From Bacteroidota bacterium (GTDB taxonomy: Bacteria; Bacteroidota; Bacteroidia; Flavobacteriales; JADGDT01), in NCBI GenBank assembly GCA_039714315.1, contig JBDLJM010000017.1, positions 1 to 34,809 of the forward strand: a stretch of DNA of 34,809 bases, in the 5' to 3' direction. The notes below the pieces were generated by a model. The model had not been told where the DNA came from, did no database searches, and worked only from the letters and a program-made list of their open reading frames with translations. The position numbers and the translations under genes were made by a program. Within the stretch, counting starts at the first letter, position 1, and each line of letters opens with the position of its first letter. Shown piece by piece: positions 6,294 to 20,094 of this stretch.

Positions 6294-7604
6294 ATGCTAT
6301 TAATCTATACCCATAAGATCACTCCAAGAATAAGATATATATTCAAACAAATTTTTCAAGGTTTTTTAGATGTAGAAGTTGGTTTTACATCAGGGGTAGA
6401 TGAGTTTATAGCTCATAAAGGTGCTAAGATTTCGTATTCTCGAAAACCATTGGGGAATGAGTTGTTTTTCCAGAGTCATAAAATATTATTTGACCAGGGA
6501 TTAAATGATATGGATATAGTTGTGACAAAATGGGATGATGTTCCGATATTTTTTCAGGTTGGAGAAAAATCAGCAATGCCTTTTGATATTTTTGGAGCGA
6601 GTTTTTATTTGTTAACCAGATTCGAAGAATATTTGCCACATATCCGCGATAATCATAACAGGTTTTCTTCTGTAGAAAGTGTTGCTTATAAAAATGGATT
6701 TATTAAAACCCCTGTTGTTGACATATGGGTAAATCGCTTATATGAAATTCTGGCAGAGAGGTTTGACTTAAAGGAAGGTAATACCAAAAAATTCAGGTTT
6801 GAATCAACAATTGATGTTGGACAGGCATATAAGTACAAAATGAAAGGTTTGATTAGGGGAGTTTCAAGCACCTTAGCAGATCTGTCATTACTTAGATTTA
6901 CGAAATTATATGATAGGGCTTTAAGTGTAGCCAATTTACGGAAAGATCCATTCGATAGTTTTAGCTTCCTTATAAGGTTACAGAAGAAATATAAAATGAG
7001 GATGAGGTATTTCTTCTTACTCGCAAATTATACAAGGTACGACAGGAATATTTCATATCACAGGGCTGATTTCAGGTCATTAATTAAATCGGTAGGAGAT
7101 AGGGCATATATTGGTTTTCATCCAAGTTATTATTCAAATATTGAACCTAAAAAATTTAAGATAGAGAAAGAGAGGTTAGAGGATATTATAAATTATAAAG
7201 CAAATGGGTCCAGACAACATTATATTAAGCTTCAGTTGCCCGAAACTTACCGGAATTTATTAGACAACGAGATCAATAATGATTATTCCATGGGCTTTGC
7301 TGATAATATTGGTTTTAGGGCATCAACATCTGAATCGTTCTATTTTTATGATTTGGATTTGGAGCTTCAAACCCCGTTAAAGGTCCACCCTTATGCTGTT
7401 AGTGATTATGCAATGAAGAATGAGCTTAAACTTTCGAAAGAGGAGGCAATAAATGAAATTTCCAGGATTATAGCTTTTGCCAAAATAACAAATGGCAAGT
7501 TTGTCAGTCTGTTTCACAATGACAGTTTAGGCAGGGATGAAGAATGGGAAGGTTGGCGAAATGTGTATTCCGAAATGGTTAAACTGGCGATGTCGGATAA
7601 TTAG
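6294..7604 (+). CDS. Polysaccharide deacetylase-like protein with DUF7033-type N terminus
   Basis: 436 residues resembling a Bacteroidota family annotated as polysaccharide deacetylase. The N-terminal part includes the characteristic FDIFGASFYLLTRFEEYLPH (98-117). The C-terminal part looks like a NodB-type barrel, with TIDVGQAYKYK at 172-182, YIGFHPSYYSN, and GFRASTSESF near the end. The family usually has Asp-Val-Asp at the first metal motif as I recall it; here D174 is followed by Gly176, so metal-dependent hydrolysis is uncertain. No signal peptide or membrane segment is seen. A TAATTTTG -7-like box at 6275-6282 would give a very short leader. Its last 4 nt overlap the convergent ATPase gene. 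Confidence 0.75.
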   Translation: MLLIYTHKITPRIRYIFKQIFQGFLDVEVGFTSGVDEFIAHKGAKISYSRKPLGNELFFQSHKILFDQGLNDMDIVVTKWDDVPIFFQVGEKSAMPFDIFGASFYLLTRFEEYLPHIRDNHNRFSSVESVAYKNGFIKTPVVDIWVNRLYEILAERFDLKEGNTKKFRFESTIDVGQAYKYKMKGLIRGVSSTLADLSLLRFTKLYDRALSVANLRKDPFDSFSFLIRLQKKYKMRMRYFFLLANYTRYDRNISYHRADFRSLIKSVGDRAYIGFHPSYYSNIEPKKFKIEKERLEDIINYKANGSRQHYIKLQLPETYRNLLDNEINNDYSMGFADNIGFRASTSESFYFYDLDLELQTPLKVHPYAVSDYAMKNELKLSKEEAINEISRIIAFAKITNGKFVSLFHNDSLGRDEEWEGWRNVYSEMVKLAMSDN

Positions 7605-8149
7605 GATTTTATATCCATATTATTTAATTCTGATTCTATTATTTCTTCAATCAAAAACTTTACTTCAGGATTTTGAATAGATATTCCATTTAGCTCATCT
7701 TTAATTTCCTGTGTTTTTATTGAGTAATATTTGTTTTCTTTTTTATATCCAAAATATATATTGATATCGGGATGAGATGAAAAGAGCATAGAAATTACCG
7801 ATGCTATATTTCCGAGAACGGGTCTGTCAATATGCGAAAGTTGAAATTGGGCTTTTACTACCGTACCTAAATTCAGTTTTGATTCTATTGAAAAACTGCC
7901 ATTGCAATTTTCGGCATTAGCTTTAAAAAGAGAGATACCTAATCCTACTTTTCTTGTTGTACGCGAACTTATGAAAGGATCGGTTACGGTCTTTAGCATT
8001 TCACTGTCCATACCACAACCATTGTCGGTAATTTTGATCGAGAGAAGGTCCTTATCAGTGTTTTCATCTATAGTAATTTCCAGGATGTCGGCATCTGCTC
8101 TTATCGAGTTCATCGCAATATCGAGAATATGTAGTGACAATTCTTTCAT
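7601..8149 (-). CDS. Small GHKL-type ATPase, hydrogenase-linked
   Basis: 182 residues: an isolated HATPase_c domain without dimerisation helices, phospho-acceptor His or sensor domain. The N box has N14 (LDIAMNSIRADA), G1 is DNGCGM (42-47) and G2 is VGLGISL (68-74). A C-terminal extension (about 110-182) is not recognised. It is last of six genes in the arm divergent from the hydrogenase operon and starts 2 nt after the PHP gene ends. Without a His-phosphotransfer domain it is more likely an ATP-dependent switch or protein kinase than a classical histidine kinase; its target is unknown. Confidence 0.82.
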   Translation of the reverse strand: MKELSLHILDIAMNSIRADADILEITIDENTDKDLLSIKITDNGCGMDSEMLKTVTDPFISSRTTRKVGLGISLFKANAENCNGSFSIESKLNLGTVVKAQFQLSHIDRPVLGNIASVISMLFSSHPDINIYFGYKKENKYYSIKTQEIKDELNGISIQNPEVKFLIEEIIESELNNMDIKS

Positions 8150-8151
8150 TT

Positions 8152-8859
8152 TTAAAGCATAGCCTTTTTTATGTTCTGGAAACTCAGAGTTTCTAATTCC
8201 AATTCTGTGTACCTTTTTCCGATATCACTTAAATAATGCGCATCGGATGATGATATGATAAATGTATCAGGTGGAATTTTGTATTTATTTTTGTGTTTGG
8301 AAAGATTTTCTTTATTGACAACTTCAATGGCATCATATTCTAAATCGTCAGGAATGAAACCCAGTTGTGAGCCAATACTGTTTCTGTGAGAGTCAATATG
8401 AGCGGGGATAAATATTCCTTTGAGCGATTTTACCTTTTCGCTTATCTCGAAAACACTTTGATCGATTGATTGTATCAGGAGTAGTTTTTCTTCCCCCATT
8501 ATATTTTCCCTTTCATCTACTATAAGTTGATTTCCAAAGAACTTAGGATTGTTTTCTTTCTTATTGATAAATTTATCAAGGTATTTCTGAAATTCTGAAA
8601 GCCTGTTCTCATCAGGGAAAAAGCAAAGACAATGTACTTCTTCCTTCGATGTTACTTCGGCACCCATCATTACAAAAATGTTGTTTTTACTCCCGATATC
8701 TCTACAAACTAATGCGTTTTTTGTGGAGTTATGATCGCTGATTCCTATAATGTCTAAACCCTTAACCAAAGCCTGATCAATTATCATTGGAGGGCTCATG
8801 TCAATATCTCCGCATGGAGAGAGGACTGTATGTATGTGTAGATCAGCTTTGAATTTCAT
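8152..8859 (-). CDS. PHP-domain metallophosphoesterase
   Basis: 235-residue PHP (polymerase and histidinol phosphatase) domain protein. Metal-ligand motifs are intact: ADLHIHTVLSPCG (H8, H10), SDHNS (D42, H43), GAEVT (E68), H76, PAHIDSH (H154) and SSDAHYL (D206, H208). The family hydrolyses phosphoester bonds using two or three metals, but the substrate cannot be read from sequence. It lies between the DRTGG and GHKL ATPase genes in the divergent arm of the hydrogenase island. PHP genes recur beside [FeFe]-hydrogenase operons of anaerobes; a nucleotide or phosphoprotein substrate in a signalling role is inference. Confidence 0.9.
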   Translation of the reverse strand: MKFKADLHIHTVLSPCGDIDMSPPMIIDQALVKGLDIIGISDHNSTKNALVCRDIGSKNNIFVMMGAEVTSKEEVHCLCFFPDENRLSEFQKYLDKFINKKENNPKFFGNQLIVDERENIMGEEKLLLIQSIDQSVFEISEKVKSLKGIFIPAHIDSHRNSIGSQLGFIPDDLEYDAIEVVNKENLSKHKNKYKIPPDTFIISSSDAHYLSDIGKRYTELELETLSFQNIKKAML

Positions 8860-8873
8860 AGTGTACTTAGTTT

Positions 8874-9209
8874 TTATTTTCTAAGTATTTCGTAAAGCAT
8901 ACCTCCAATCTCAAAAGCACTTTTGTTACTGCCAAGGATTGGAATTCCTTCTTCTTCGGCAGCTTCCAGCATATTTTTATCCGGAGTTTGTCCATCGATA
9001 AGTATAACGGCACTAAGATCGTTAAGCGAAGCTACGGCCAACACATTTTTATGGGTTTGAACCGTTATCCACACCTGACCTTCATCGCTTTTTCCCATTA
9101 CATGACTTAACAAATCACCTGCAAATCCGTCTTTAACCTCCGGCGATAAATCGGCATTTTTGTTAAAAACCTTCAGATTAAGTTTGTTTACAATTTCGCT
9201 TACTGTCAT
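8874..9209 (-). CDS. DRTGG-domain protein (copy A)
   Basis: 111 residues, a stand-alone DRTGG domain. This alpha/beta fold is known from the middle of some phosphotransacetylases and CBS-domain proteins, where it is probably a ligand-binding or regulatory module. Visible traits are the N-terminal VSEIVNKLNLKVF, the core VLAVASLNDLSAVILIDG and EEEGIPILGSNKSAFEIGGMLYEIL at the C terminus. It has no catalytic motif. A second DRTGG gene opens the same operon (11013-11357). The gap to the upstream HydS-like gene is 6 nt, so co-translation is likely. Confidence 0.8.
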   Translation of the reverse strand: MTVSEIVNKLNLKVFNKNADLSPEVKDGFAGDLLSHVMGKSDEGQVWITVQTHKNVLAVASLNDLSAVILIDGQTPDKNMLEAAEEEGIPILGSNKSAFEIGGMLYEILRK

Positions 9210-9215
9210 TGCTGT

Positions 9216-10568
9216 TTAGTGTTTTTTAAATTTATTCTTCCCCCAGATATCTTCAAGGATTTCCTTACTTTTCTTATGATCCAGACCTTGTTTTTCTTCA
9301 AGTTTACGTTGAATTACAAAGCAATATTCAATACTTGCTTTTTCCTCAATTATATTTCTTGTTAATGATTTACATGAAGGGTATCCACAGGCACCACAGT
9401 CTAAACTGGGTAGGATTTTAAAAATCTCCTGAGTTCTTTCCATCTTGGCCAGTGCTTTTAGAGGATCAGAATCATATTTAATTATTGATCTTGGTTCAAT
9501 TTTGTTGGTTTTTACATCTTCATACGATACATCACTGGTATGATTAATAGGTTTTTCTTCAGGGTTTTCGCTGTAGAATTCTGTGTAATATTTTGCTCTG
9601 TTTCTTAATCTTTGCGCAGTTAGAAATCTGTTTTGAGGAGTTAAAATTCCTCCGGCACAACCCTGATCGCAGTTTTTCATTTCTAAAAAGTCGATCTCAT
9701 TGCATCCCTGAGTTTCAATTTTGTCGAGAAAGGAGATAATATTTTTTGTACCGTCAATAGACAAACATGTTCCCGGAAGATTTTTTATCTCTCCTCCTGA
9801 TAGGCTCCATAAAATGTGGTCGGGTTCTATTGCATTGTTTGTGATTTCTTTTTTATGCCTTTTTTTTACCGTGTTCTTTTTAGTGAGAATTGATAGAATT
9901 TCGTTGAAGACAATATCCATATTTATTACACCGTCAAGAGCAGATTTACTTCCTCCGATGGGAGCTTTGAGGGATGTTATTTTTGCAGAACATGGTGTGA
10001 AGTAAAAAATGCCAACATCTTCTTTGTCTTTCAGTTGTTTCCGGATAGATGTGGCAGTTATATCAACGGGAGTTTCAATGTTCATTATATTTTCGGTTAA
10101 TTGTGGGAAGTTAACCTGAATAAGCCTCAAAACCGCCGGACAAAACGAAGATATAACCGGCAGAGATTCTTTTCTGTTTATTTTTTCAGTAAAAAGTTTT
10201 TCTACCAGTTGCGATCCTTCCTCAACCTCATAAACATAGGTAAAGCCCAGATCCTGTACTGCTTTAAAAACTTCTCTCGCTTTAATTCCCTGAGGAAACT
10301 GTCCCATGAATACAGAGGGTATCAAAGCAACTTTAGTTTTGAAATTATTAATTTGGTTCAAACCGTCATCTTCTACACTAATAGCTCCAACGGGACAAAC
10401 TCTGTAACATTCATCGCAATCAATACATCTCTCAGGGTTTAGATTAGAATGTCCATTCCAGATATGCAGGGCTTCTGTAGGGCAAACTTTTATACAATGA
10501 GAACACCCAATACATTTATCAGTATTAATATGTATGGCGTGATACAATGAGTTGGCTGAAGTGTTCAT
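9216..10568 (-). CDS. HydS-like [FeFe]-hydrogenase-related protein, putative H2/redox sensor
   Basis: 450 residues. N terminus: two [4Fe-4S] ferredoxin motifs (C19, C22, C25, C29; C48, C51, C54, C58). About 75-320: [FeFe]-hydrogenase large-subunit domain. C terminus: a CODH/RnfB-type Fe-S motif (C391, C394, C399, C416). All four Cys ligands expected for the H-cluster cubane are present (C143, C193, C300, C304), but the motifs are degenerate: SSFCPAV instead of TSCCPGW, TPCSAK instead of MPCxAK, EMKNCDQGC instead of MACPGGC. The proton-relay Cys of catalytic enzymes is Phe142. Such changes characterise sensory hydrogenases; Thermotoga HydS is encoded near HydABC but carries a PAS domain, absent here. 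Sensor role is inferred; a scaffold or Fe-S electron carrier is possible. Confidence 0.85.
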   Translation of the reverse strand: MNTSANSLYHAIHINTDKCIGCSHCIKVCPTEALHIWNGHSNLNPERCIDCDECYRVCPVGAISVEDDGLNQINNFKTKVALIPSVFMGQFPQGIKAREVFKAVQDLGFTYVYEVEEGSQLVEKLFTEKINRKESLPVISSFCPAVLRLIQVNFPQLTENIMNIETPVDITATSIRKQLKDKEDVGIFYFTPCSAKITSLKAPIGGSKSALDGVINMDIVFNEILSILTKKNTVKKRHKKEITNNAIEPDHILWSLSGGEIKNLPGTCLSIDGTKNIISFLDKIETQGCNEIDFLEMKNCDQGCAGGILTPQNRFLTAQRLRNRAKYYTEFYSENPEEKPINHTSDVSYEDVKTNKIEPRSIIKYDSDPLKALAKMERTQEIFKILPSLDCGACGYPSCKSLTRNIIEEKASIEYCFVIQRKLEEKQGLDHKKSKEILEDIWGKNKFKKH

Positions 10569-10582
10569 TTTATTAATTTGTT

Positions 10583-11023
10583 TTATACTGTTGTCAGATC
10601 TATTTTTAAAGTAACTTTAGTACCATTTCCAACTTTAGATTCTACATTTAAATAATCAGAATTCTTTTTTATATTAGGAAGCCCCATACCTGCACCGAAT
10701 CCCATACTTGTTACTGTTGGAGAAGCAGTGGAGAAACCTTCTTCCATCGCTTTTTCAATATTTTCAATTCCCGGACCTTCATCATTTAATACGATAGAAA
10801 TATCTTTTGAATTAATGTCGACTTCAATATTTCCTTTATATGCATGAGCTACAATGTTAACTTCGGCTTCATATAACGAAACTACCACTCTTTTAATAGT
10901 TTTTGGCGGGATGTTTAATTGCTTTAATGTCCTTTTTATTTCACTGGATGCTTTTCCGGCATTGGCGAAATCTCCCCCTTCAATTTTATATTTAAAATTT
11001 ATTCCGCTCATATCAAAAAACAT
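10583..11023 (-). CDS. RsbW-like anti-sigma/serine kinase ATPase domain protein
   Basis: 146 residues, a single GHKL ATPase domain of the anti-sigma-factor type. N box SLYEAEVNIVAHAYKG, G1 NDEGPGI, G2 GFGAGMGLPNIKK. RsbW/SpoIIAB proteins phosphorylate a STAS antagonist and sequester a sigma factor; no STAS, PP2C or sigma gene is encoded in this window, so partners are unknown. The listed start overlaps the upstream DRTGG gene by 11 nt; an internal ATG at 11011 (MSGINFKYK, 142 residues) begins 1 nt beyond that gene's stop and is equally plausible. It precedes the HydS-like gene by 14 nt, which suggests that the two proteins act together. Confidence 0.87.
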   Translation of the reverse strand: MFFDMSGINFKYKIEGGDFANAGKASSEIKRTLKQLNIPPKTIKRVVVSLYEAEVNIVAHAYKGNIEVDINSKDISIVLNDEGPGIENIEKAMEEGFSTASPTVTSMGFGAGMGLPNIKKNSDYLNVESKVGNGTKVTLKIDLTTV

Positions 11024-11357
11024 CTTTTATTTCATTCGAATATAATATTCCGCAACACCTGTAAACTGACAAATTTGTAGAAATTAGAGAAATGTTTCCT
11101 TCGCGGGCCAATTCTACGATTTCTTCCGAAACTTTCTTTCCTTTCGCAATTATTACAAATGGAATATCTGCCATCTCCGCTGTTCGTATAGTTTGAGTAT
11201 TTGCAAGCCCGGTTATAAGAATATCAGGCTCATTTTCGAGAGTTAATACATCACTCATTAAGTCTGAAGCCACTACTGTTATTAATGATGTAGCACTATT
11301 AACAGCAATATTCAGAGGATTACCTTCAAGTATATTTATCAATTTTTCGGGCGACAT
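11013..11357 (-). CDS. DRTGG-domain protein (copy B)
   Basis: 114 residues, first gene of the divergent regulatory arm. Recognisable DRTGG-like features are the start LINILEGNPLNIAV, then VVASDLMSDVLTL and ILITGLANTQTIRTAEMADIPFVIIAKG, and the C-terminal LISTNLSVYRCCGILYS. It shares the fold pattern of copy A but little identity, so the two may form a heteromeric pair. There are two adjacent Cys in the C-terminal part. It starts 176 nt from the start of the divergent hydrogenase operon, within reach of shared operators. Confidence 0.75.
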   Translation of the reverse strand: MSPEKLINILEGNPLNIAVNSATSLITVVASDLMSDVLTLENEPDILITGLANTQTIRTAEMADIPFVIIAKGKKVSEEIVELAREGNISLISTNLSVYRCCGILYSNEIKDVF

Positions 11358-11385
11358 ATTTAACTTTTAGTATACATTAAACAAT

Positions 11386-11473
11386 GTTACAAAAGTTACT
11401 ATGTAACAAAAATGACATTAGTACATGTTTAAAAGTAACAAATGTCACTTAGAAAAACAGTAAATGTCATTTA
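11386..11473. promoter_or_regulatory. Cluster of small palindromes between the divergent hydrogenase arms
   Basis: Three related palindromes lie at regular spacing: AATGACATT (centre 11415), AAATGTCACTT (centre 11445) and the perfect TAAATGTCATTTA (11461-11473, centre 11467). The middle one belongs to a longer dyad AAGTAACA-AA-TGTCACTT (11433-11450) with one half-site mismatch. GTTACTATGTAAC (11395-11407) is another perfect palindrome. The spacings of 30 and 22 bp are near three and two helical turns. These look like operators for a dimeric regulator acting on both arms; the regulator is not identified. Confidence 0.5.
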
Positions 11474-11533: not shown

Positions 11534-11923
11534 ATGACAAAGATTAAATCCTTAAATGATTTGCGAAAATTGAGAGATCAGTTGCAATCTTCGATTGAAC
11601 TACGCGAAAATGCAGAAAGCCCGGATGCTGTAGTTCAGGTAAAAGTTGGAATGGCTACCAGTGGAATTGCCTCAGGTGCACGCGAAGTATTTAACTTTTT
11701 CGCAGAGGTTTTGCCAAAACGTGAAGTAAAGGCCATTGTGACCCAAACGGGTGATATGGGCTACAAATATGCCGAGCCTATTATTATGGTTACGCTTCCC
11801 GGGAAAAGTCCTGTTGTATTTGGTAAGGTCGATATTCCTAAAGCAGATGAGATAATTGAGAAATATATAAAGCACGGAGAGCTGGTGGATGGGATTGTAC
11901 CTGAGAGTTATAAAACTATTTAA
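11534..11923 (+). CDS. Cysteine-less thioredoxin-like ferredoxin homologue
   Basis: 129 residues, first gene of the hydrogenase operon. It matches the small thioredoxin-like [2Fe-2S] ferredoxin (NuoE/HydC C-terminal fold) often encoded beside NAD-linked [FeFe] hydrogenases: KVGMATSGIASGAREV (38-52) and VTQTGDMGYKYAEPIIMV (69-86). Homologues I recall have Cys at MGTCGIAAGA and TGCxGxCYAEP; here these are S43, D74 and K78. There is no cysteine in the whole protein, so it cannot hold a conventional [2Fe-2S] cluster although the fold signature is kept. A structural or regulatory subunit role is inference. The gap to hydB is 80 nt. Confidence 0.85.
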   Translation: MTKIKSLNDLRKLRDQLQSSIELRENAESPDAVVQVKVGMATSGIASGAREVFNFFAEVLPKREVKAIVTQTGDMGYKYAEPIIMVTLPGKSPVVFGKVDIPKADEIIEKYIKHGELVDGIVPESYKTI

Positions 11924-12003
11924 TTTTTAGTGGTAAATAAAAAAATGATATGGGAATAAGTTGTGGAATAAAATTCACATTTCTGCCAAATTAATTATTG
12001 ATA

Positions 12004-13800
12004 ATGACAAAGATAAATCAGCATATACTTACTTGTGGAGGAACCGGATGTAGAGCCTCTGAAAGTAAAATATTAGCAGCCCGGTTGAAAGAGGAATTGA
12101 AAAATTTTGATTTAGACCAAAACGTTAAAGTTGTGGAAAGCGGATGCTTCGGATTTTGTGAAAAAGGACCGATAGTTAAATTACTGCCCGATAATACTTT
12201 CTATACTCAGGTAAAGCCTAAAGATGCTAAAGAAATTGTAGAAGAGCATGTTTTAAAGGGACGAAAAATAAGTCGTTTACTTTATAAGGATCCTACTACT
12301 AATGAAACTATTGATGAATCAAAATCGATGGGTTTCTACAAAAAACAAATACGTATAGCTACACGTAACTGTGGTTTTATCGATCCGGAAAATATTGGAG
12401 AATATGTAGCTCGCAATGGTTATGAAGCGCTGGGGAAAACTGTTTTTGAGTTGAAACCTGACGACATAATCAATACTATAAAAGCATCAGGACTTCGAGG
12501 AAGAGGTGGTGGAGGTTTTCCAACCGGATTGAAATGGGAACTTACTGCGAAATCGGAAAGCGAAAAAAAATATGTTGTTTGTAATGCAGATGAAGGGGAT
12601 CCGGGAGCTTTTATGGACAGATCGATACTTGAAGGAGATCCGCATTCGGTATTAGAAGCAATGGCAATTTGCGGCTATGCAATTGGAGCAGATGAAGGAT
12701 TAATTTACATCAGGGCAGAATACCCTTTGGCTATCGAAAGATTGAAAATAGCGATTAAGCAGGCAGAAGAAGTTGGTTTGATCGGAGATAATATTTTGGG
12801 ATCGGATTTTAGCTTTAATATAAAGTTAAAATACGGTGCAGGAGCATTTGTATGCGGAGAAGAAACAGCGTTAATACATTCTATGGAGGGATTTAGAGGG
12901 GAACCTACTCTAAAACCTCCATTTCCTGCCGAACGAGGTTATTTCGATAAGCCGACAAATGTGAATAATGTTGAAACACTGGCTAATATTGCGGCTATAA
13001 TAAATAAAGGTGCAGAGTGGTATTCAAGTATCGGTACCGAGAAATCGAAGGGAACGAAAGTTTTTGCCTTAGCCGGTAAAATAAATAATGTAGGCTTAAT
13101 AGAAGTGCCTATGGGTACAACTCTTAGGGAAGTGATTTTTGATATTGGGGGAGGAATTAAAGACGGTAAAAAATTTAAAGCCGTACAAACAGGAGGTCCT
13201 TCCGGAGGATGTTTAACAGAGGAACATTTAGATACACATATAGATTTTGATAACCTATTGGCTATTGGATCTATGATGGGATCCGGAGGAATGATTGTAA
13301 TGGACGAAGACGACTGTATGGTTTCAGTCGCCAAATTCTATCTTGAATTTACAGTAGAGGAATCATGCGGGAAATGTGCACCATGTAGAATAGGTAATAA
13401 GCGACTTCTTGAAATCCTTGAAAAAATATCAAATGGAAAAGGAACTCGTGATGATTTGTTCTTGCTTAGAAATATGAGTGAGGTAATAAAAGATTCTTCA
13501 TTATGTGGCTTAGGACAGACCTCTCCAAATCCTGTTTTATCTACTCTGGATAATTTCTGGGATGAATTTGTTGAACATGTTGATGATAATAAGTGTAGAG
13601 CAGGACAGTGTAAATCGATGTTGAAATATGTGATCAGCGAAGATGACTGTGTTGGATGTACTGCATGTTTCAGAGTTTGTCCTACCGGTGCAATTACCGG
13701 AAGCAAAAAAGAAGTTCATATTATAAATCAGGATTTGTGCATTAAATGTGGAGCTTGTATGGATAAGTGTCATTTCGAATCAATTGAGCTAATCGCATAA
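12004..13800 (+). CDS. hydB: NAD-linked [FeFe] hydrogenase subunit HydB (NuoF-like flavoprotein)
   Basis: 598 residues. It carries FMN and the NAD(H) site, and links NAD(H) and ferredoxin to HydA in electron-bifurcating or NAD-dependent [FeFe] hydrogenases. N-terminal thioredoxin-like [2Fe-2S] domain (C11, C16, C48, C52); FMN/NADH-binding motif GRGGGGFPTG (166-175) and NADEGDPGAF (194-203); SLBB region; [4Fe-4S] motif C455, C458, C461, C501; C-terminal double ferredoxin (C549, C552, C555, C559; C579, C582, C585, C589). The ATG at 12004 is preferred over a TTG at 11998, two codons upstream. hydA follows after 5 nt. Whether it truly bifurcates cannot be proved from sequence. Confidence 0.95.
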   Translation: MTKINQHILTCGGTGCRASESKILAARLKEELKNFDLDQNVKVVESGCFGFCEKGPIVKLLPDNTFYTQVKPKDAKEIVEEHVLKGRKISRLLYKDPTTNETIDESKSMGFYKKQIRIATRNCGFIDPENIGEYVARNGYEALGKTVFELKPDDIINTIKASGLRGRGGGGFPTGLKWELTAKSESEKKYVVCNADEGDPGAFMDRSILEGDPHSVLEAMAICGYAIGADEGLIYIRAEYPLAIERLKIAIKQAEEVGLIGDNILGSDFSFNIKLKYGAGAFVCGEETALIHSMEGFRGEPTLKPPFPAERGYFDKPTNVNNVETLANIAAIINKGAEWYSSIGTEKSKGTKVFALAGKINNVGLIEVPMGTTLREVIFDIGGGIKDGKKFKAVQTGGPSGGCLTEEHLDTHIDFDNLLAIGSMMGSGGMIVMDEDDCMVSVAKFYLEFTVEESCGKCAPCRIGNKRLLEILEKISNGKGTRDDLFLLRNMSEVIKDSSLCGLGQTSPNPVLSTLDNFWDEFVEHVDDNKCRAGQCKSMLKYVISEDDCVGCTACFRVCPTGAITGSKKEVHIINQDLCIKCGACMDKCHFESIELIA

Positions 13801-13805
13801 CTATC

Positions 13806-15590
13806 ATGGGAAAAATAAATATAGAAATAGATAATAAAAAAATACAGGTAGAAGAAGGATCTACTGTATTGGAAGCAGCCAAATCTCTGGGGATTGATAT
13901 ACCAACTCTTTGTCATATGAATCTTCACGATTTGGATGTTGAAAATAAGCCTGCCGGTTGTAGGGTTTGTACTGTTGAGATTGAAGGGAGAAGAAATTTA
14001 GCACCTTCATGCGCCACAGATGTTTACGAAGGAATGAAAATTAAAACCAGTACAATGCGTGTTATTAATGCACGACGTACAGTAATGGAGTTTATTCTTT
14101 CCGATCACCCTAAAGATTGTCTGGTTTGTGCCAAAAACGGTGTTTGCGATTTGCAGGATATGGCAGCAAAATTAGGAGTTCGCGAAATTCCTAATCAGGA
14201 GATTTATGAAATGTCAACTTACCGACTTGATACTTCGCCTTCCATTGTTAGAAATATGGATAAGTGTATCATGTGCCGTAAGTGTGAAACTATGTGTAAC
14301 GAGGTGCAGACAGTGGGTGCTTTACACGCAGTAGGACGTGGATTTGAGTCAGTGGTTAGTACACCTTTCCATATGGATTTGGAGGATACAACCTGTACTT
14401 ATTGCGGTCAGTGTGTTGCTGTTTGTCCTACCGCTGCATTAACTGAAGTTGATCATACAAATAATGTTATCAGAGCTATATCAGACCCTAAGAAGACTGT
14501 TGTAGTACAAACTGCTCCGGCAGTACGTGCGGCTCTTGGAGAAGAGTTTGGTATGGAACCGGGTAATTTAGTTACCGGTCAAATGGTTTCAGGGCTAAGG
14601 GCTTTAGGCTTCGATTATGTTTTTGATACCGATTTTGCTGCCGATGTTACCATTATGGAAGAAGGTACTGAGTTGCTTGACAGGCTGGGTAAACACCTTG
14701 CCGGTGATAAAGATGTAAAATTGCCAATACTCACTTCCTGTTGTCCGGGTTGGGTAAATTTCTTCGAGACTCAGTTTCCCGATATGTTAGATATACCATC
14801 AACGGCACGTTCTCCTCAACAGATTTTTGGTTCTATTGCCAAAACATATTTTGCGGATAAGCTTGAAATCAATAGAAAAGATATGGTTGTGGTTTCTATC
14901 ATGCCGTGTCTGGCCAAAAAATATGAAGCTCAACGTGATGAGTTTAAAGTAGATGAAAATCCTGATGTTGATTACTCTATTACAACCCGTGAGTTGGCAC
15001 AGCTGATGAAACAAGCTAACATGAACCTTGTAAATCTGCCGGAAGAAGATTTCGATCAACCTATGGGAGAGTCAACCGGAGCCGGTGTTATTTTCGGAAC
15101 AACAGGAGGTGTAATCGAGGCCGCTACCCGTACAGCTTACGAAGTTCACACTAAGAAAGAGCTGGAAAACGTTGAGTTTAAACAGTTGAGAGGTATGGAA
15201 GGTATACGCGAAGCAACGATAGATTTTGACGGATTAGATATAAAAATAGGTATTGCTCACGGACTTGGAAATGCACGCAAGCTGCTTGAAGATATACGTT
15301 CAGGGAAATCAGAATTTCACGCGATTGAAGTTATGGCTTGTCCGGGTGGATGTATTGGTGGAGGCGGACAGCCTTATCACCACGGTGATTCTGGTATTCT
15401 TAAGAAAAGAGCTCAGGCACTTTATAGAGAAGACGAAGGTAAAGCTAAGAGAAAATCTCATTTAAATCCGGCCGTAAAAAAGGTTTATGAAGATTTTCTG
15501 GGAGCTCCGATGAGTGAGAAAGCACACCATCTGTTGCATACTAATTATTTTAATAAGTGTGCCACCGGACCAGAGATTGTTAATGATTAA
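13806..15590 (+). CDS. hydA: [FeFe] hydrogenase catalytic subunit HydA (group A3-like)
   Basis: 594-residue enzyme for reversible H2 formation or uptake at the H-cluster, in the cytoplasm. Clusters in order: [2Fe-2S] (C36, C52, C55, C69), His-ligated [4Fe-4S] (H101, C105, C108, C114), two ferredoxin-type [4Fe-4S] (C154, C157, C160, C164; C197, C200, C203, C207), then the H domain with intact TSCCPGW (310-316, proton-relay C312, ligand C313), MPCLAKKYEA (C368) and MACPGGCIGGGGQP (C512, C516). A short small-subunit-like tail (about 535-580) follows. There is no signal peptide. The domain set and HydB/HydC neighbours match trimeric NAD/ferredoxin-linked enzymes. It contrasts with the degenerate homologue at 9216-10568. 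Confidence 0.97.
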   Translation: MGKINIEIDNKKIQVEEGSTVLEAAKSLGIDIPTLCHMNLHDLDVENKPAGCRVCTVEIEGRRNLAPSCATDVYEGMKIKTSTMRVINARRTVMEFILSDHPKDCLVCAKNGVCDLQDMAAKLGVREIPNQEIYEMSTYRLDTSPSIVRNMDKCIMCRKCETMCNEVQTVGALHAVGRGFESVVSTPFHMDLEDTTCTYCGQCVAVCPTAALTEVDHTNNVIRAISDPKKTVVVQTAPAVRAALGEEFGMEPGNLVTGQMVSGLRALGFDYVFDTDFAADVTIMEEGTELLDRLGKHLAGDKDVKLPILTSCCPGWVNFFETQFPDMLDIPSTARSPQQIFGSIAKTYFADKLEINRKDMVVVSIMPCLAKKYEAQRDEFKVDENPDVDYSITTRELAQLMKQANMNLVNLPEEDFDQPMGESTGAGVIFGTTGGVIEAATRTAYEVHTKKELENVEFKQLRGMEGIREATIDFDGLDIKIGIAHGLGNARKLLEDIRSGKSEFHAIEVMACPGGCIGGGGQPYHHGDSGILKKRAQALYREDEGKAKRKSHLNPAVKKVYEDFLGAPMSEKAHHLLHTNYFNKCATGPEIVND

Positions 15591-15678
15591 AAATATTGTT
15601 TGAGGTTTGATGTTCGATGTTTGCGGTTAATAGCCCCAAACATCAACTCCCAAACCCCAAACTCCAAACATTAGAATT
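15591..15678. repeat. Low-complexity spacer with hairpin between hydA and hydC
   Basis: Quasi-repeats of GTTTGATGTT on the left and CCCAAACTCCAAAC on the right are partly complementary. The best stem is GATGTTTG (15616-15623) with CAAACATC (15637-15644), extended inward by two G-C pairs. No T-run follows, so it is not a standard terminator; it may affect the mRNA stability or the stoichiometry of HydC. Confidence 0.6.
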
Positions 15679-16176
15679 ATGTCAATAGTTTGTGAAAAAG
15701 ATAAATTACAGTTACAGCACCAATTGCGAATAAAAGAAATTTGCAAGGGTTTTAATGGTAAACATTCAGAGTTGATAAATATACTTCACGCCTGTCAGGG
15801 CTACTTTGGTTATTTGCCTGCCGAAGTACAGGAAGCAATTGCAATGGAAATTAATATGCCGGTTTCGAAAGTATACGGAGTAGTTACTTTCTATTCTTTC
15901 TTTACTATGAAACCTAAAGGGAGATTCCCAATTTCTATTTGTACCGGAACAGCCTGCTATGTAAGAGGTGCTGATAAATTAATAGATGAATTTAATCGTG
16001 AATTAGGAATCGATCTTGGTCAAACAACCGAAGATGGTAAGTTTTCTATGAGTAGTTTACGATGCGTGGGAGCATGTGGATTGGCTCCGGTTGTTATGAT
16101 AGGAGATAAAACTTATGGTCATGTTTCGCCAAATAAGGTGAAAAAGATTTTGAAAGAGTATAAGGATGAGGAATAA
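15679..16176 (+). CDS. hydC: NAD-linked [FeFe] hydrogenase subunit HydC (NuoE-like)
   Basis: 165-residue [2Fe-2S] thioredoxin-like subunit of the trimeric hydrogenase, homologous to complex I NuoE. The N-terminal helical part (ELINILHACQGYFGYLPAEVQEAIA) precedes the cluster domain with CTGTACYVRG (C88, C93) and RCVGACG (C129, C133), all four ligands present. It passes electrons within the complex next to HydB. Here it follows hydA, whereas several known operons start with hydC. An 88-nt low-complexity spacer separates it from hydA. It is the complete counterpart of the cysteine-less ferredoxin-fold protein at 11534-11923. Confidence 0.95.
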   Translation: MSIVCEKDKLQLQHQLRIKEICKGFNGKHSELINILHACQGYFGYLPAEVQEAIAMEINMPVSKVYGVVTFYSFFTMKPKGRFPISICTGTACYVRGADKLIDEFNRELGIDLGQTTEDGKFSMSSLRCVGACGLAPVVMIGDKTYGHVSPNKVKKILKEYKDEE

Positions 16177-16217: not shown

Positions 16218-17642
16218 ATGAAATTCATACCACAAGAATATAAAATTAAGGATGAGCCAATGAAAGAATTCATCGATAAAGATGAATTATGGGACTTCAT
16301 TGACAATGCCGATACCAGTGCTGAAAATATAAGGGCAATTATTGCAAAATCAATATCTAAAGAAAGATTGAATTTAGCAGAAGTTGCCAGTTTAGTACAA
16401 ACTACCGACCCTGGTTTAGTAGAAGAAATTAAAGAAGGCGCACGATTGCTTAAACGTAAAGTATATGGAAACAGAATAGTTTTATTTGCTCCATTATATG
16501 TTGGTAATTTATGCGCAAACAATTGCGAATATTGTGGTTTTAAAGCTTCGAACAAGGAAGCGAAGAGAGTTACGCTGAACAACCGGCAGTTAGTGGAAAA
16601 TGTTGAAGCCTTAGAAGATAATGGTCATAAACGTTTGATTTTGGTATATGGTGAGCACAAAAACTATTCACCGGAATTTATTGCTGAAAATGTAAAAGCT
16701 GTTTACAAAGTAAAGAAAGGAAATGGCGAAATCAGACGTGTAAATATCAATGCTGCACCACTGGATATTGAAGGTTTCAGAACAGTTAAAGAAGCCGGAA
16801 TTGGAACTTTCCAGGTTTTTCAGGAAACATATCATACGGAGGCCTACTCAAAATACCATACAAAAGGTAAAAAAGCTGATTTCGGAAACAGATTGACATC
16901 ATTAGACAGAGCACAGGAAGCAGGATTGGACGATGTAGGTATCGGTGCTCTATTCGGTTTGTACGACTGGCGTTTCGAAGTAATGGGGCTGGTACGTCAT
17001 ACCAATCACCTGGAGGCTTGTTATAATGTTGGTCCGCATACTATTTCTTTCCCGCGTATTCAGGATGCTCTGGAAAATAATGTTTCAGAAGAACATTTGG
17101 TAAGTGATGAAGATTTTACGAAGCTGGTTGCGATATTAAGATTAGCGGTTCCATACACAGGATTGATTCTTACGGCGCGTGAGCCACAGGAAATAAGAAA
17201 AGAAGTTTTACAGTTTGGATGTTCACAGGTTGATGCCGGTACCAAAATAGAAATGGGAGCTTATGCGGAGGATACATTAAAAAAGCAAAAATTAAATAAT
17301 GAGCAGTTCCAGATAAACGATGAGCGTTCGTTAGCAGATGTTATTGATGAATTGATTGAAACTGATTACCTGCCTTCTTTTTGTACTGCCTGTTACAGAG
17401 CAGGTAGAACCGGTGAGCATTTTATGGAATTCTCGGTTCCCGGCTTTATCAAAAAGTTCTGTACTCCAAATGCGATTTTAACATTGGCAGAATATGTAGA
17501 AGATTATGCCAGACCGGAATCGAAAGATAAAGGTTGGAGTTTGATAGACAAGAATTTGATTGATTTAGAACCAAAATTAAAATCGAAAGTTGAAAAACGA
17601 TTGGAGTTGGTTAAAGAAGGAGAGAGAGATTTGTATTTTTAG
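16218..17642 (+). CDS. hydG: [FeFe] hydrogenase maturase HydG (radical SAM tyrosine lyase)
   Basis: 474 residues, the normal length. HydG cleaves tyrosine with SAM to make CO and cyanide for the [2Fe] subcluster of the H-cluster. The radical-SAM motif CANNCEYC gives C99, C103, C106 (CX3CX2C), and the C-terminal auxiliary cluster motif CX2CX22C is intact (C389, C392, C415), which separates HydG from ThiH. An internal ATG (M15) is a possible alternative start. It follows hydC by 41 nt and starts the maturation half of the operon. Confidence 0.97.
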   Translation: MKFIPQEYKIKDEPMKEFIDKDELWDFIDNADTSAENIRAIIAKSISKERLNLAEVASLVQTTDPGLVEEIKEGARLLKRKVYGNRIVLFAPLYVGNLCANNCEYCGFKASNKEAKRVTLNNRQLVENVEALEDNGHKRLILVYGEHKNYSPEFIAENVKAVYKVKKGNGEIRRVNINAAPLDIEGFRTVKEAGIGTFQVFQETYHTEAYSKYHTKGKKADFGNRLTSLDRAQEAGLDDVGIGALFGLYDWRFEVMGLVRHTNHLEACYNVGPHTISFPRIQDALENNVSEEHLVSDEDFTKLVAILRLAVPYTGLILTAREPQEIRKEVLQFGCSQVDAGTKIEMGAYAEDTLKKQKLNNEQFQINDERSLADVIDELIETDYLPSFCTACYRAGRTGEHFMEFSVPGFIKKFCTPNAILTLAEYVEDYARPESKDKGWSLIDKNLIDLEPKLKSKVEKRLELVKEGERDLYF

Positions 17643-17741
17643 ATTAGTAAAAGAGTAGATGAGTAATGGAGTAGAAGAGTAAAAGAGGTTTATTGATTAT
17701 TCTGTTTCACTGCATTACTGTTTCATAGAATCACTAATAAC
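17643..17741. repeat. Low-complexity spacer between hydG and hydF
   Basis: The first part (about 17645-17688) consists of loose repeats of AGTAAAAGAGTAGATGAG, purine-rich like other repeat blocks of this window. The second part (17690-17741) is unremarkable AT-rich sequence. There is no terminator. Confidence 0.55.
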
Positions 17742-18971
17742 ATGAAAAAACCTAAAGACATAAAACCACACATAGGAATTTTCGGCAGACGAAATACCGG
17801 AAAAAGTTCTTTTATTAACTTTTTGAGCGGGCAGGAAACTTCTATTGTTTCTCCTGAAGCCGGAACAACTACTGATCCTGTGAAAAAATCTATTGAAATT
17901 TTTGGAATAGGACCTGCTGTTATTATTGATACTGCCGGGATTGATGACGTAGGCGAATTAGGAAAAAAGCGTATTGAAAAATCAATAAAAGCTATTGACC
18001 TGATAGATATGGCTGTATTGATTATTTCCGGGAACCTGTTCGGTGAATTTGAAATTGATCTGCTTAATAGTTTCGAAAAGAAGAAAGTTCCTTTTTTGAT
18101 TATTCACAATAAGGTTGATGTTGATGTATTGCATCCGGAACTTTTACTTAATATTAAAGAAAAAACAGGTTCTGAATGTCTGCAAATTTCAACTTTTAAT
18201 AAAAAAGATAAAGAAGCTGTAATTGAAGATTTCAAAAAAACAATTCCCGAAACAGCCTATAAAAACAAAGCTCTTTTTGATGGTTTGTTGAAACAAAAGA
18301 GCACTGTTTTGTTGGTTACTCCGATAGATTCTGAAGCTCCGGAAGGTAGAATGATCCTGCCTCAGGTTATGGCTATTCGTAATGTTTTGGACGAAAACTC
18401 TATTTGCGTGGTTGTAAAAGAAAGTGAATTGTACGATGTAATGTCGTGGGGAATGAAATTTGATTTGGTTGTTACCGATAGTCAGGCGTTTGACTATGTA
18501 TCAAAGATGGTTCCGCAAGATACTTTACTAACGAGTTTTTCAATTCTTTTTGCAAGGCTGAAAAGCGATTTCTATCATTATTTAGGCGGTACAAGCAGGA
18601 TTTCGTCACTAAGTGACGGAGATAAAGTTTTGATACTTGAATCTTGCACTCATCAGGTAAGTTGTGACGATATCGGGAGATTTAAGATTCCAAAATGGCT
18701 GACTGATTTTACCGGTAAAAAATTAGACTATGAGTTTATTTCAGGATTTGATATTCCCGAAGAAGATATAGAAAAATACTCTCTGGTAGTACAATGTGGA
18801 GGTTGCGTAGTAACAAAAAAGCAGTTACAAAACAGAATTCAACCGGCTATTGATGCAAGAATACCTGTTACTAATTACGGGATGGCGATAGCTTATGTAA
18901 ACGGTATTTTTGAAAGAGCGATTAAACCGTTTTTTGCTATAGAGACTGAGAGAGCCGGAATAAGAGATTAA
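17742..18971 (+). CDS. hydF: [FeFe] hydrogenase maturation GTPase HydF
   Basis: 409 residues. HydF is the scaffold that assembles the [2Fe] subcluster and delivers it to HydA. N-terminal GTPase domain: P-loop GRRNTGKSS (15-23), G3 DTAG (63-66), G4 NKVD (123-126). The C-terminal Fe-S domain has C302 and H304 (ESCTH), C352 and C355 (VVQCGGC). The family consensus as I recall it is CxH...HCxxC; here the His before C352 is Gln351, so the exchangeable fourth cluster ligand may differ. Transcribed between hydG and hydE. Confidence 0.96.
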   Translation: MKKPKDIKPHIGIFGRRNTGKSSFINFLSGQETSIVSPEAGTTTDPVKKSIEIFGIGPAVIIDTAGIDDVGELGKKRIEKSIKAIDLIDMAVLIISGNLFGEFEIDLLNSFEKKKVPFLIIHNKVDVDVLHPELLLNIKEKTGSECLQISTFNKKDKEAVIEDFKKTIPETAYKNKALFDGLLKQKSTVLLVTPIDSEAPEGRMILPQVMAIRNVLDENSICVVVKESELYDVMSWGMKFDLVVTDSQAFDYVSKMVPQDTLLTSFSILFARLKSDFYHYLGGTSRISSLSDGDKVLILESCTHQVSCDDIGRFKIPKWLTDFTGKKLDYEFISGFDIPEEDIEKYSLVVQCGGCVVTKKQLQNRIQPAIDARIPVTNYGMAIAYVNGIFERAIKPFFAIETERAGIRD

Positions 18972-19008
18972 AGGATTATAGGATTAGTTAATCATATTAT
19001 CTGAAAAA

Positions 19009-20094
19009 ATGATTCAAAAAATATTAAATACCGAAAACTACACAAAACAAAATCTGGTCAAACTTCTTCAGTCGGAAGGTAATGACAGGAAATTACTGTT
19101 TTCTAAATCATCAGCTGTAAAAGAAGAACATATCGCAAATATAGTTTATTTGCGTGCCCTGATAGAATTTTCCAATCACTGCGAAAAAGACTGTTTGTAT
19201 TGCGGAATAAGGAAAAGTAATTCATCCCCAAAAAGATATACAATTCCTCAGGAAGAAGTAAATAAAACAATAGATTCAGCCATAAATAAAGGATATTCTT
19301 CTATTGTAATTCAAGCCGGAGAATGTAAGGATGAAGAGTTTATAGAAACGATCAATAATGCTCTTATTTATGCAAAAGAGCAGAGTGGGAATAAATTAGG
19401 AATTACACTATCACTGGGCGAGCAGGAAAAATCAACTTATCAAAAGTGGTTTGATTTGGGAGCTCACAGATATTTACTGCGAATAGAATCGTCTAGTAAA
19501 GAGCTGTTCGAAACTATACATCCCCGAAACGAAAATCATTCTTTTGAAACCAGACTACAAAAGCTTAAAGAACTAAAAGAAATTGGATTTCAGGTAGGTA
19601 CAGGAGTTATGATTGGTTTACCAAATCAAACTTTGGAAGATTTAGCCGATGATTTACTTTTTATGAAAGCTTTCGATATTGATATGTGTGGAATGGGACC
19701 ATATATTGTTAGTCCTGATACGCCATTAGCAAAACTTGCTCATAAAATTCCATCTGAAGAAAGTAGAATTGATTTGAGTTTGAAGATGATTGCGCTTTTA
19801 AGACTTTTGATGAATGATATTAATATAGCTTCTACAACGGCTCTTCAAACATTGACGGAAAGAGCCAGAGAGGAAGGGATTAAAGTAGGTGCAAATATTA
19901 TTATGCCAAATCTTACAGCCGTAGATTTTAAAGAGAGCTATAAACTTTATAATAAGAAAACCGATCTTAAATCGCACGATGATACCTTAGCAGCTATTAA
20001 CCTGCAGATGGAAAGAGTTGGCCATAAAGTTGAAATTGGAAAATGGGGAGATTCTTTACATTTTGAAAAAAAGTGTTGCCATAAACTTATTTGA
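19009..20094 (+). CDS. hydE: [FeFe] hydrogenase maturase HydE (radical SAM)
   Basis: 361 residues, typical length. HydE is a radical SAM enzyme that processes the HydG-derived iron-CO/CN synthon on the way to the [2Fe] subcluster. The cluster motif is CEKDCLYC (C58, C62, C65; CX3CX2C), followed by GIRKSN and QAGE. The barrel ends near LTAVDFKESYKLYNKK. It is the last gene of the hydrogenase operon; its stop codon lies 2 nt from the stop of the convergent GH3 gene, with no room for a classical terminator in between. Confidence 0.96.
   Translation: MIQKILNTENYTKQNLVKLLQSEGNDRKLLFSKSSAVKEEHIANIVYLRALIEFSNHCEKDCLYCGIRKSNSSPKRYTIPQEEVNKTIDSAINKGYSSIVIQAGECKDEEFIETINNALIYAKEQSGNKLGITLSLGEQEKSTYQKWFDLGAHRYLLRIESSSKELFETIHPRNENHSFETRLQKLKELKEIGFQVGTGVMIGLPNQTLEDLADDLLFMKAFDIDMCGMGPYIVSPDTPLAKLAHKIPSEESRIDLSLKMIALLRLLMNDINIASTTALQTLTERAREEGIKVGANIIMPNLTAVDFKESYKLYNKKTDLKSHDDTLAAINLQMERVGHKVEIGKWGDSLHFEKKCCHKLI

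Follow-up and report, generated by a model that had tools for sequence, protein, structure and literature searches.

A group D (M2e) [FeFe]-hydrogenase-type protein with phenylalanine at the proton-relay position: a probable slow H2 or redox sensor beside a conserved kinase-like module in Bacteroidota

The analysed stretch of DNA (the window) comprises 34,809 nucleotides of a Bacteroidota genome, contig JBDLJM010000017.1. Near the genes of an electron-bifurcating-type hydrogenase and its maturases it encodes a HydS-like protein that, as an earlier note pointed out, has all ligands of the H-cluster cubane and phenylalanine at the position of the proton-relay cysteine. Does such a protein hold an H-cluster, and is it a sensor, an auxiliary catalyst, or a hydrogenase in decay? 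We consider it probable that it is a group D protein acting as a slow H-cluster sensor of H2 or redox state and passing its signal to a kinase-like module in control of HydBAC. This reading builds on what was observed: the domain architecture and the phylogenetic position, ligands and proton-path residues that are all intact, maturase genes in the window, and a conserved module.

The hydS gene (9216..10568, minus strand) starts with an ATG codon at position 10568 and encodes 450 amino acids. A Pfam scan of its product found two Fer4 motifs (residues 13-62), an Fe_hyd_lg_C domain (PF02906, residues 90-307, E=1.3e-25) and an FeS domain (PF04060, residues 386-416, E=7.7e-10), and no PAS domain in any of the 450 residues. 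The Fer4 matches define an N-terminal 2x[4Fe-4S] domain (residues 13-64; 10377..10532) with cysteines C19, C22, C25, C29, C48, C51, C54 and C58. The PF04060 match contains an exact Cx2Cx4Cx16C motif, C391-x2-C394-x4-C399-x16-C416 (9321..9398). The domain matches and the cysteine pattern are far beyond chance. The AlphaFold2 model, built on a 37-sequence alignment, has a mean pLDDT of 90.6, and its residues 6-362 match [FeFe]-hydrogenases (CpI, Z about 27; CbA5H, Z 29; T. maritima HydA, Z 28). The protein is 78% and 60% identical to its counterparts in two genomes of the same genus, and HydS is present in 112 of 393 genomes sampled from the order of a relative, G378. A search of genome contigs with the single HydS protein yielded only one relative, and scans of IMG/VR gave no match.

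Putative sensors without a PAS domain have been split off as group D, or M2e (PMC8163306, PMC10407848, PMC13104023). Proteins of this group consist of an N-terminal [4Fe-4S] pair, the H-domain and a C-terminal Cx2Cx4Cx16C cluster; they have no relay cysteine, carry Ser or Thr at the position of M353 in CpI, and have a proton path E252/E289/S249/D265 in the numbering of TamHydS from Thermoanaerobacter mathranii (PMC8163306, PMC10407848, PMC13104023). Ser or Thr at the M353 position is a hallmark of M2e, and the Cx2Cx4Cx16C motif is typical of M2e and M2f (PMC8163306). The window HydS has the four cubane cysteines, both N-terminal [4Fe-4S] motifs, the Cx2Cx4Cx16C motif, no PAS domain, F142 in place of C299, T191 at the M353 position and equivalents of all proton-path residues. 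A maximum-likelihood tree was built from 63 H-domain proteins. Groups A, B, C and D are well separated in it (support 100/100, 98/91, 99/97 and 100/100, respectively), and the window protein lies inside group D. It has neither the C-terminal PAS domain of group C (M2f) nor a place in the group C clade. These sequence features identify it as a HydS of group D (M2e), where the label of the clade comes from published features and synteny, the TamHydS sequence being absent from the tree, and where positions in TamHydS and TmHydS were matched via the residue numbers given in the papers. In the first tree the long-branch 'HydA' rows L094, L095, L108 and L109 stood out. Pfam finds no H-domain in L094, L095 and L109, and L108 is a close sister of L109; the careful tree omits these four and a further group A row, L135.

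The HydS-like identity proposed in the earlier note is borne out both by the fold and by the phylogeny against groups A-D, the protein lying within group D. The C-terminal motif and the lack of a PAS domain, both mentioned there, are indeed present. The contrast with the Thermotoga HydS that was drawn from them is misplaced, since the C-terminal Fe-S motif occurs in group C as it does in group D (PMC8163306, PMC13104023), and group D is defined by having no PAS. The combination is the ordinary group D layout and is not new.

The translation contains SSFCP at residues 140-144, with F142 and C143 (10140..10145), YFTPCSAK with T191-P192-C193 (9990..9998), and FLEMKNCDQGCAGG with C300 and C304; E296, K298, C300, C304 and the glycine-rich CDQGCAGG occupy 9648..9683. 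All these sites are on the minus strand. The cubane ligands C143, C193, C300 and C304 and the CDQGCAGG motif are as described previously; the bridge to the [2Fe] site would be made by C304. When the protein is aligned with other H-domains, including that of the group A HydA encoded in the window, F142 falls at C299 of CpI, which agrees with the earlier reading of SSFCP, and K298 at M497.

How common is this variant? Our group D set comprises 117 sequences, most of them from Bacteroidota. Position 142 is Phe in 106 of them, Tyr in nine and Ala in two, the latter from Clostridia-like sources (L057, Subdoligranulum, and L131). C143 and C193 are present in 117/117, and position 191 is Thr (108), Ser (8) or Ala (1). 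The M497 position is Arg in 104 sequences and Lys in six, and the basic residue goes together with the aromatic one at 142. In TamHydS this position is Leu, and in groups A and B it is Met. The relay cysteine of groups C and D has been described as exchanged 'mostly' into alanine, as in A137 of TamHydS (PMC10407848). The counts in the 117 sequences indicate that an aromatic residue at 142 is fixed in a large part of group D centred on Bacteroidota; F142 is thus a clade-wide aromatic substitution and no defect or quirk of the window protein. We found no study of an F/Y + R/K pocket in the literature searched. Beside an H-cluster such a pocket would represent chemistry new to that literature, the sole characterised group D enzyme having Ala and Leu.

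A protein without the group A relay cysteine need not have lost proton transfer, and here the route proposed for group D is intact. S257, E260 and D272 (9753..9800, minus strand) and E296 correspond to S249, E252, D265 and E289 of TamHydS. E260 and D272 are both retained in 112 of the 117 sequences and both lost in the remaining five. These five come from exactly the genomes G205, G368, G213, G493 and G569 and form one clade, so that the joint loss is one event on the tree; all their cubane cysteines are kept. As for the accessory clusters, seven of the eight N-terminal Fer4 cysteines are invariant and C22 is present in 112/117 relatives, and all four cysteines of the C-terminal motif are invariant.

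A set of charged residues of TamHydS, R30, R32, K35, K58, E392, D393 and D403, is reported to be more than 75% conserved and not defining for the group (PMC13104023). The window HydS lacks this set and has H35, W37, H40, I63, R404, N405 and Y415 instead. H35/W37 and R404/N405, which stand where TamHydS has the predicted interdomain salt bridges of R30/R32 with E392/D393, are a feature of its own genus. The position pair 35/405 is R-D in 109 of 116 sequences and H-N or H-A in seven, with no mixed pairs. This co-change is suggestive of the predicted salt bridge and is not proof of it, because two changes on the best tree suffice to explain it, and supported branches force just one of these.

On the minus strand the operon consists of six genes: DRTGG-domain protein A (11013..11357; PF07085), which precedes rsbW and hydS in nearly all loci; an RsbW/SpoIIAB-like GHKL ATPase, a putative serine kinase (10583..11023; HATPase_c_2, spIIAB E 6.3e-17); hydS; DRTGG-domain protein B (8874..9209; PF07085/PF02603); a PHP-family metallophosphoesterase-like protein (8152..8859), whose PHP match is just below the Pfam cut-off and whose His/Asp/Glu metal ligands are conserved; and a HATPase_c protein (7601..8149; PF02518, domain from residue 8) without a phospho-accepting histidine domain. 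The divergent plus strand starts with a cysteine-free HydD-like gene (11534..11923; weak NF041613 match), a thioredoxin-fold ferredoxin relative that separates the module from hydB in most loci. It is followed by hydB, hydA and hydC for an electron-bifurcating-type group A [FeFe] hydrogenase (11998..16176; Pfam) and by the maturase genes hydG, hydF and hydE (16218..20094; TIGR03955, TIGR03918 and TIGR03956, all over cut-off). The divergent promoter region contains a palindrome, TGTTACAAAAGTTACTATGTAACA (11385..11408), of the form TGTTAC-N12-GTAACA. It is a candidate operator: the window contains it once, where 0.05 matches are expected, the genome has no second copy, and the same-genus genome G001 keeps it. 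Promoter and terminator scans gave results below shuffled expectation.

The module is conserved at large. Long flanks are available for 41 loci. The RsbW-like gene adjoins hydS in every one of them, the first-gene DRTGG match is seen in 38, and hydB is nearby in 33; these counts are lower bounds, as some contigs end early. The same module occurs in Parabacteroides distasonis with no hydBAC nearby, and on Clostridia-like contigs. In locus L109 (7655-8467) the DRTGG and RsbW-like ATPase domains are fused in one protein, and the pair is therefore likely to act as a unit. M2e genes are known to lie upstream of bifurcating hydrogenases and to adjoin histidine or serine kinases (PMC3561251, PMC3608648, PMC8163306); in the literature searched, a single paper names both DRTGG and hydrogenase, each of them once. 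Two further loci, L131 (MT835800.1), with a whole group D hydS-hydCBA cluster, and L133 (MT835859.1), with a group C hydrogenase, are deposited in GenBank as 'Bacteriophage sp.' and look like bacterial contigs.

Does the protein have its cofactor? Maturases were checked in 42 HydS-carrying genomes. Both HydF and HydG score over the cut-off in 35 of them, including the genome of the window, where they sit 6-9 kb from hydS. Neither does so in seven, which are G205, G368, G213, G496 and three members of family f26. The absence from G496 may reflect an assembly gap, its sister G690 having HydEFG. In G205 and G368 HydS is the only protein with an H-domain and keeps all four cubane cysteines. The subunit beside HydBC lacks an H-domain in G205, G368, G213 and G569. 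In the first three (L094, L095 and L096) hydCB is accompanied by a gene for a 586-588-aa Fer2/multi-Fer4 protein; in G569 (L109) the HydS module lies by HydC, HydB and a molybdopterin formate-dehydrogenase-like subunit replacing the hydrogenase. The layout in G493 (L108) is L109-like by sequence match. At other places in their genomes, G493 and G569 encode HydF, HydG and additional [FeFe] hydrogenases. In family f26 HydG is over the cut-off in only one of 78 genomes.

The Parabacteroides-like genomes G378, G628 and G529 of this family (L136, L137 and L138) have an intact hydBAC (TSCCP, MPC, ACPGGC) and further H-domain proteins in addition to the HydS module. HydE and HydF over the cut-off were not found in the f26 genomes where they were searched; these appear to be [FeFe] hydrogenases without known maturases.

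The earlier note considered a low-activity sensor with an H-cluster the simplest reading of the retained ligands. It is the likeliest one, given the group D assignment and the presence of hydE, hydF and hydG in the window. The cubane cysteines alone, on the other hand, do not prove an H-cluster, because HydS of G205 and G368 keeps all four without HydF and HydG. Better sequence evidence for an H-cluster is provided by HydEFG next door and the intact proton path. One possibility is that HydS is an H-cluster-free redox sensor, with only the [4Fe-4S] cubane and accessory clusters, reporting the NADH/ferredoxin pool or the state of the HydBC flavoprotein and not H2. The two genomes just named are consistent with this, as are the HydBC neighbours without an H-domain in G205, G368, G213 and G569, the loss of E260 and D272 in the same genomes and G493, and the module kept in f26. 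For the window protein we nevertheless regard it as improbable: HydEFG is adjacent and the proton path of group D is complete, which is what the use of an H-cluster would lead one to expect. Also unlikely is a broader version, in which the basic role of group D HydS is Fe-S redox sensing for flavoprotein complexes of the HydBC type, and both the H-cluster and H2 sensing are dispensable. It is suggested by the fact that G205, G368 and f26 keep the module and the cubane ligands without detectable HydEFG, some with a non-hydrogenase catalytic subunit.

An auxiliary catalytic hydrogenase, passing electrons between H2 and ferredoxin or HydBAC, would agree with the co-encoded HydBAC and with the two N-terminal [4Fe-4S] clusters, a plausible wire. 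However, the ATPase/kinase-like gene is always beside hydS, even where hydBAC is elsewhere (L056, L111, L126), and TamHydS has very low activity (PMC10407848); we hold this role to be distinctly unlikely. A decaying or inactive paralogue could explain why the relay cysteine of group A and the two active-site methionines are absent. It is highly improbable and was rejected, since the cluster ligands of the H-domain and the C-terminal motif, as well as E296, are invariant over about 116 sequences, the operon is intact, and comparison with G001 gives dN of 0.16 with dS saturated. The slow H-cluster sensor has points against it as well. F142 would be bulky next to the azadithiolate, family f26 retains the module where HydEFG is not found, the operon contains no gene for a DNA-binding regulator, and the C-terminal cluster of TamHydS did not respond to H2 (PMC13104023). 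In the literature searched, an H-cluster, a response to H2 and signalling have been shown for no group D member from Bacteroidota.

We infer H-cluster occupancy, H2 sensing, and the kinase activity and target of the module as follows. The H-domain would carry a complete H-cluster made by the adjacent HydEFG, and HydS would turn over H2 slowly, as a hydrogen or redox sensor for HydBAC. H2 would react at the H-cluster, with protons leaving via E260/E296/S257/D272 and not via a cysteine, and electrons going to the N-terminal clusters. A resulting change in shape or redox state may be read by the pair of DRTGG protein and RsbW-like ATPase, which would phosphorylate a putative target, a step that the PHP protein may undo. 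In the end the amount or activity of HydBAC would be adjusted. For the signalling of group C and D hydrogenases, of which group D has no PAS domain, the RsbW/SpoIIAB-like ATPase with the PHP phosphoesterase-like protein is a concrete candidate output. The window HydS is an ordinary member of a known, poorly understood kind, and its active-site variant is common to the whole clade. The maturase-less relatives form a useful comparative set for what group D proteins sense, and they can serve as natural controls on the need for an H-cluster in sensing.

TamHydS, the sole characterised group D member, is slow and putatively sensory (PMC8163306, PMC10407848, PMC13104023). The window protein shares with it the order of 2x[4Fe-4S], H-domain and C-terminal [4Fe-4S] cluster, the Cx2Cx4Cx16C motif, the absence of PAS and of the relay cysteine, the E/E/S/D path, Ser/Thr at M353, and the location upstream of a bifurcating group A hydrogenase and beside an ATPase. 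It differs in F142 for A137, K298 for L291, H35/W37 for R30/R32, R404/N405 for E392/D393, and Y415 for D403, the neighbour of the last cysteine. TmHydS of Thermotoga maritima (group C, M2f) is likewise a putative sensor with no relay cysteine and with the C-terminal [4Fe-4S] motif, whereas it has a C-terminal PAS domain and no proton path of the E252 type, and belongs to a clade of its own (PMC10055695).

The RsbW-like neighbour (11023..10583) resembles SpoIIAB/RsbW as a GHKL-family protein that keeps the N (Y51-E52-x-E54-x-N56), G1 (D81-x-G83-P-G85) and G2 (G108-F-G-A-G-M-G114) boxes, and its closest PDB structures are anti-sigma F factor SpoIIAB. However, it scores 61.8 bits against the SpoIIAB model, below the cut-off of 135, and the gene cluster contains no sigma factor or anti-anti-sigma gene; the likeness to the SpoIIAB/RsbW kinases is thus one of working alike only. 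Finally, the group A HydA of HydABC in the same window (13806..15590) has the same H-domain fold and four cubane cysteines. Unlike HydS, it possesses C299, M353 and M497, a small-subunit domain and a Fer2 domain, and group A enzymes are fast catalysts.
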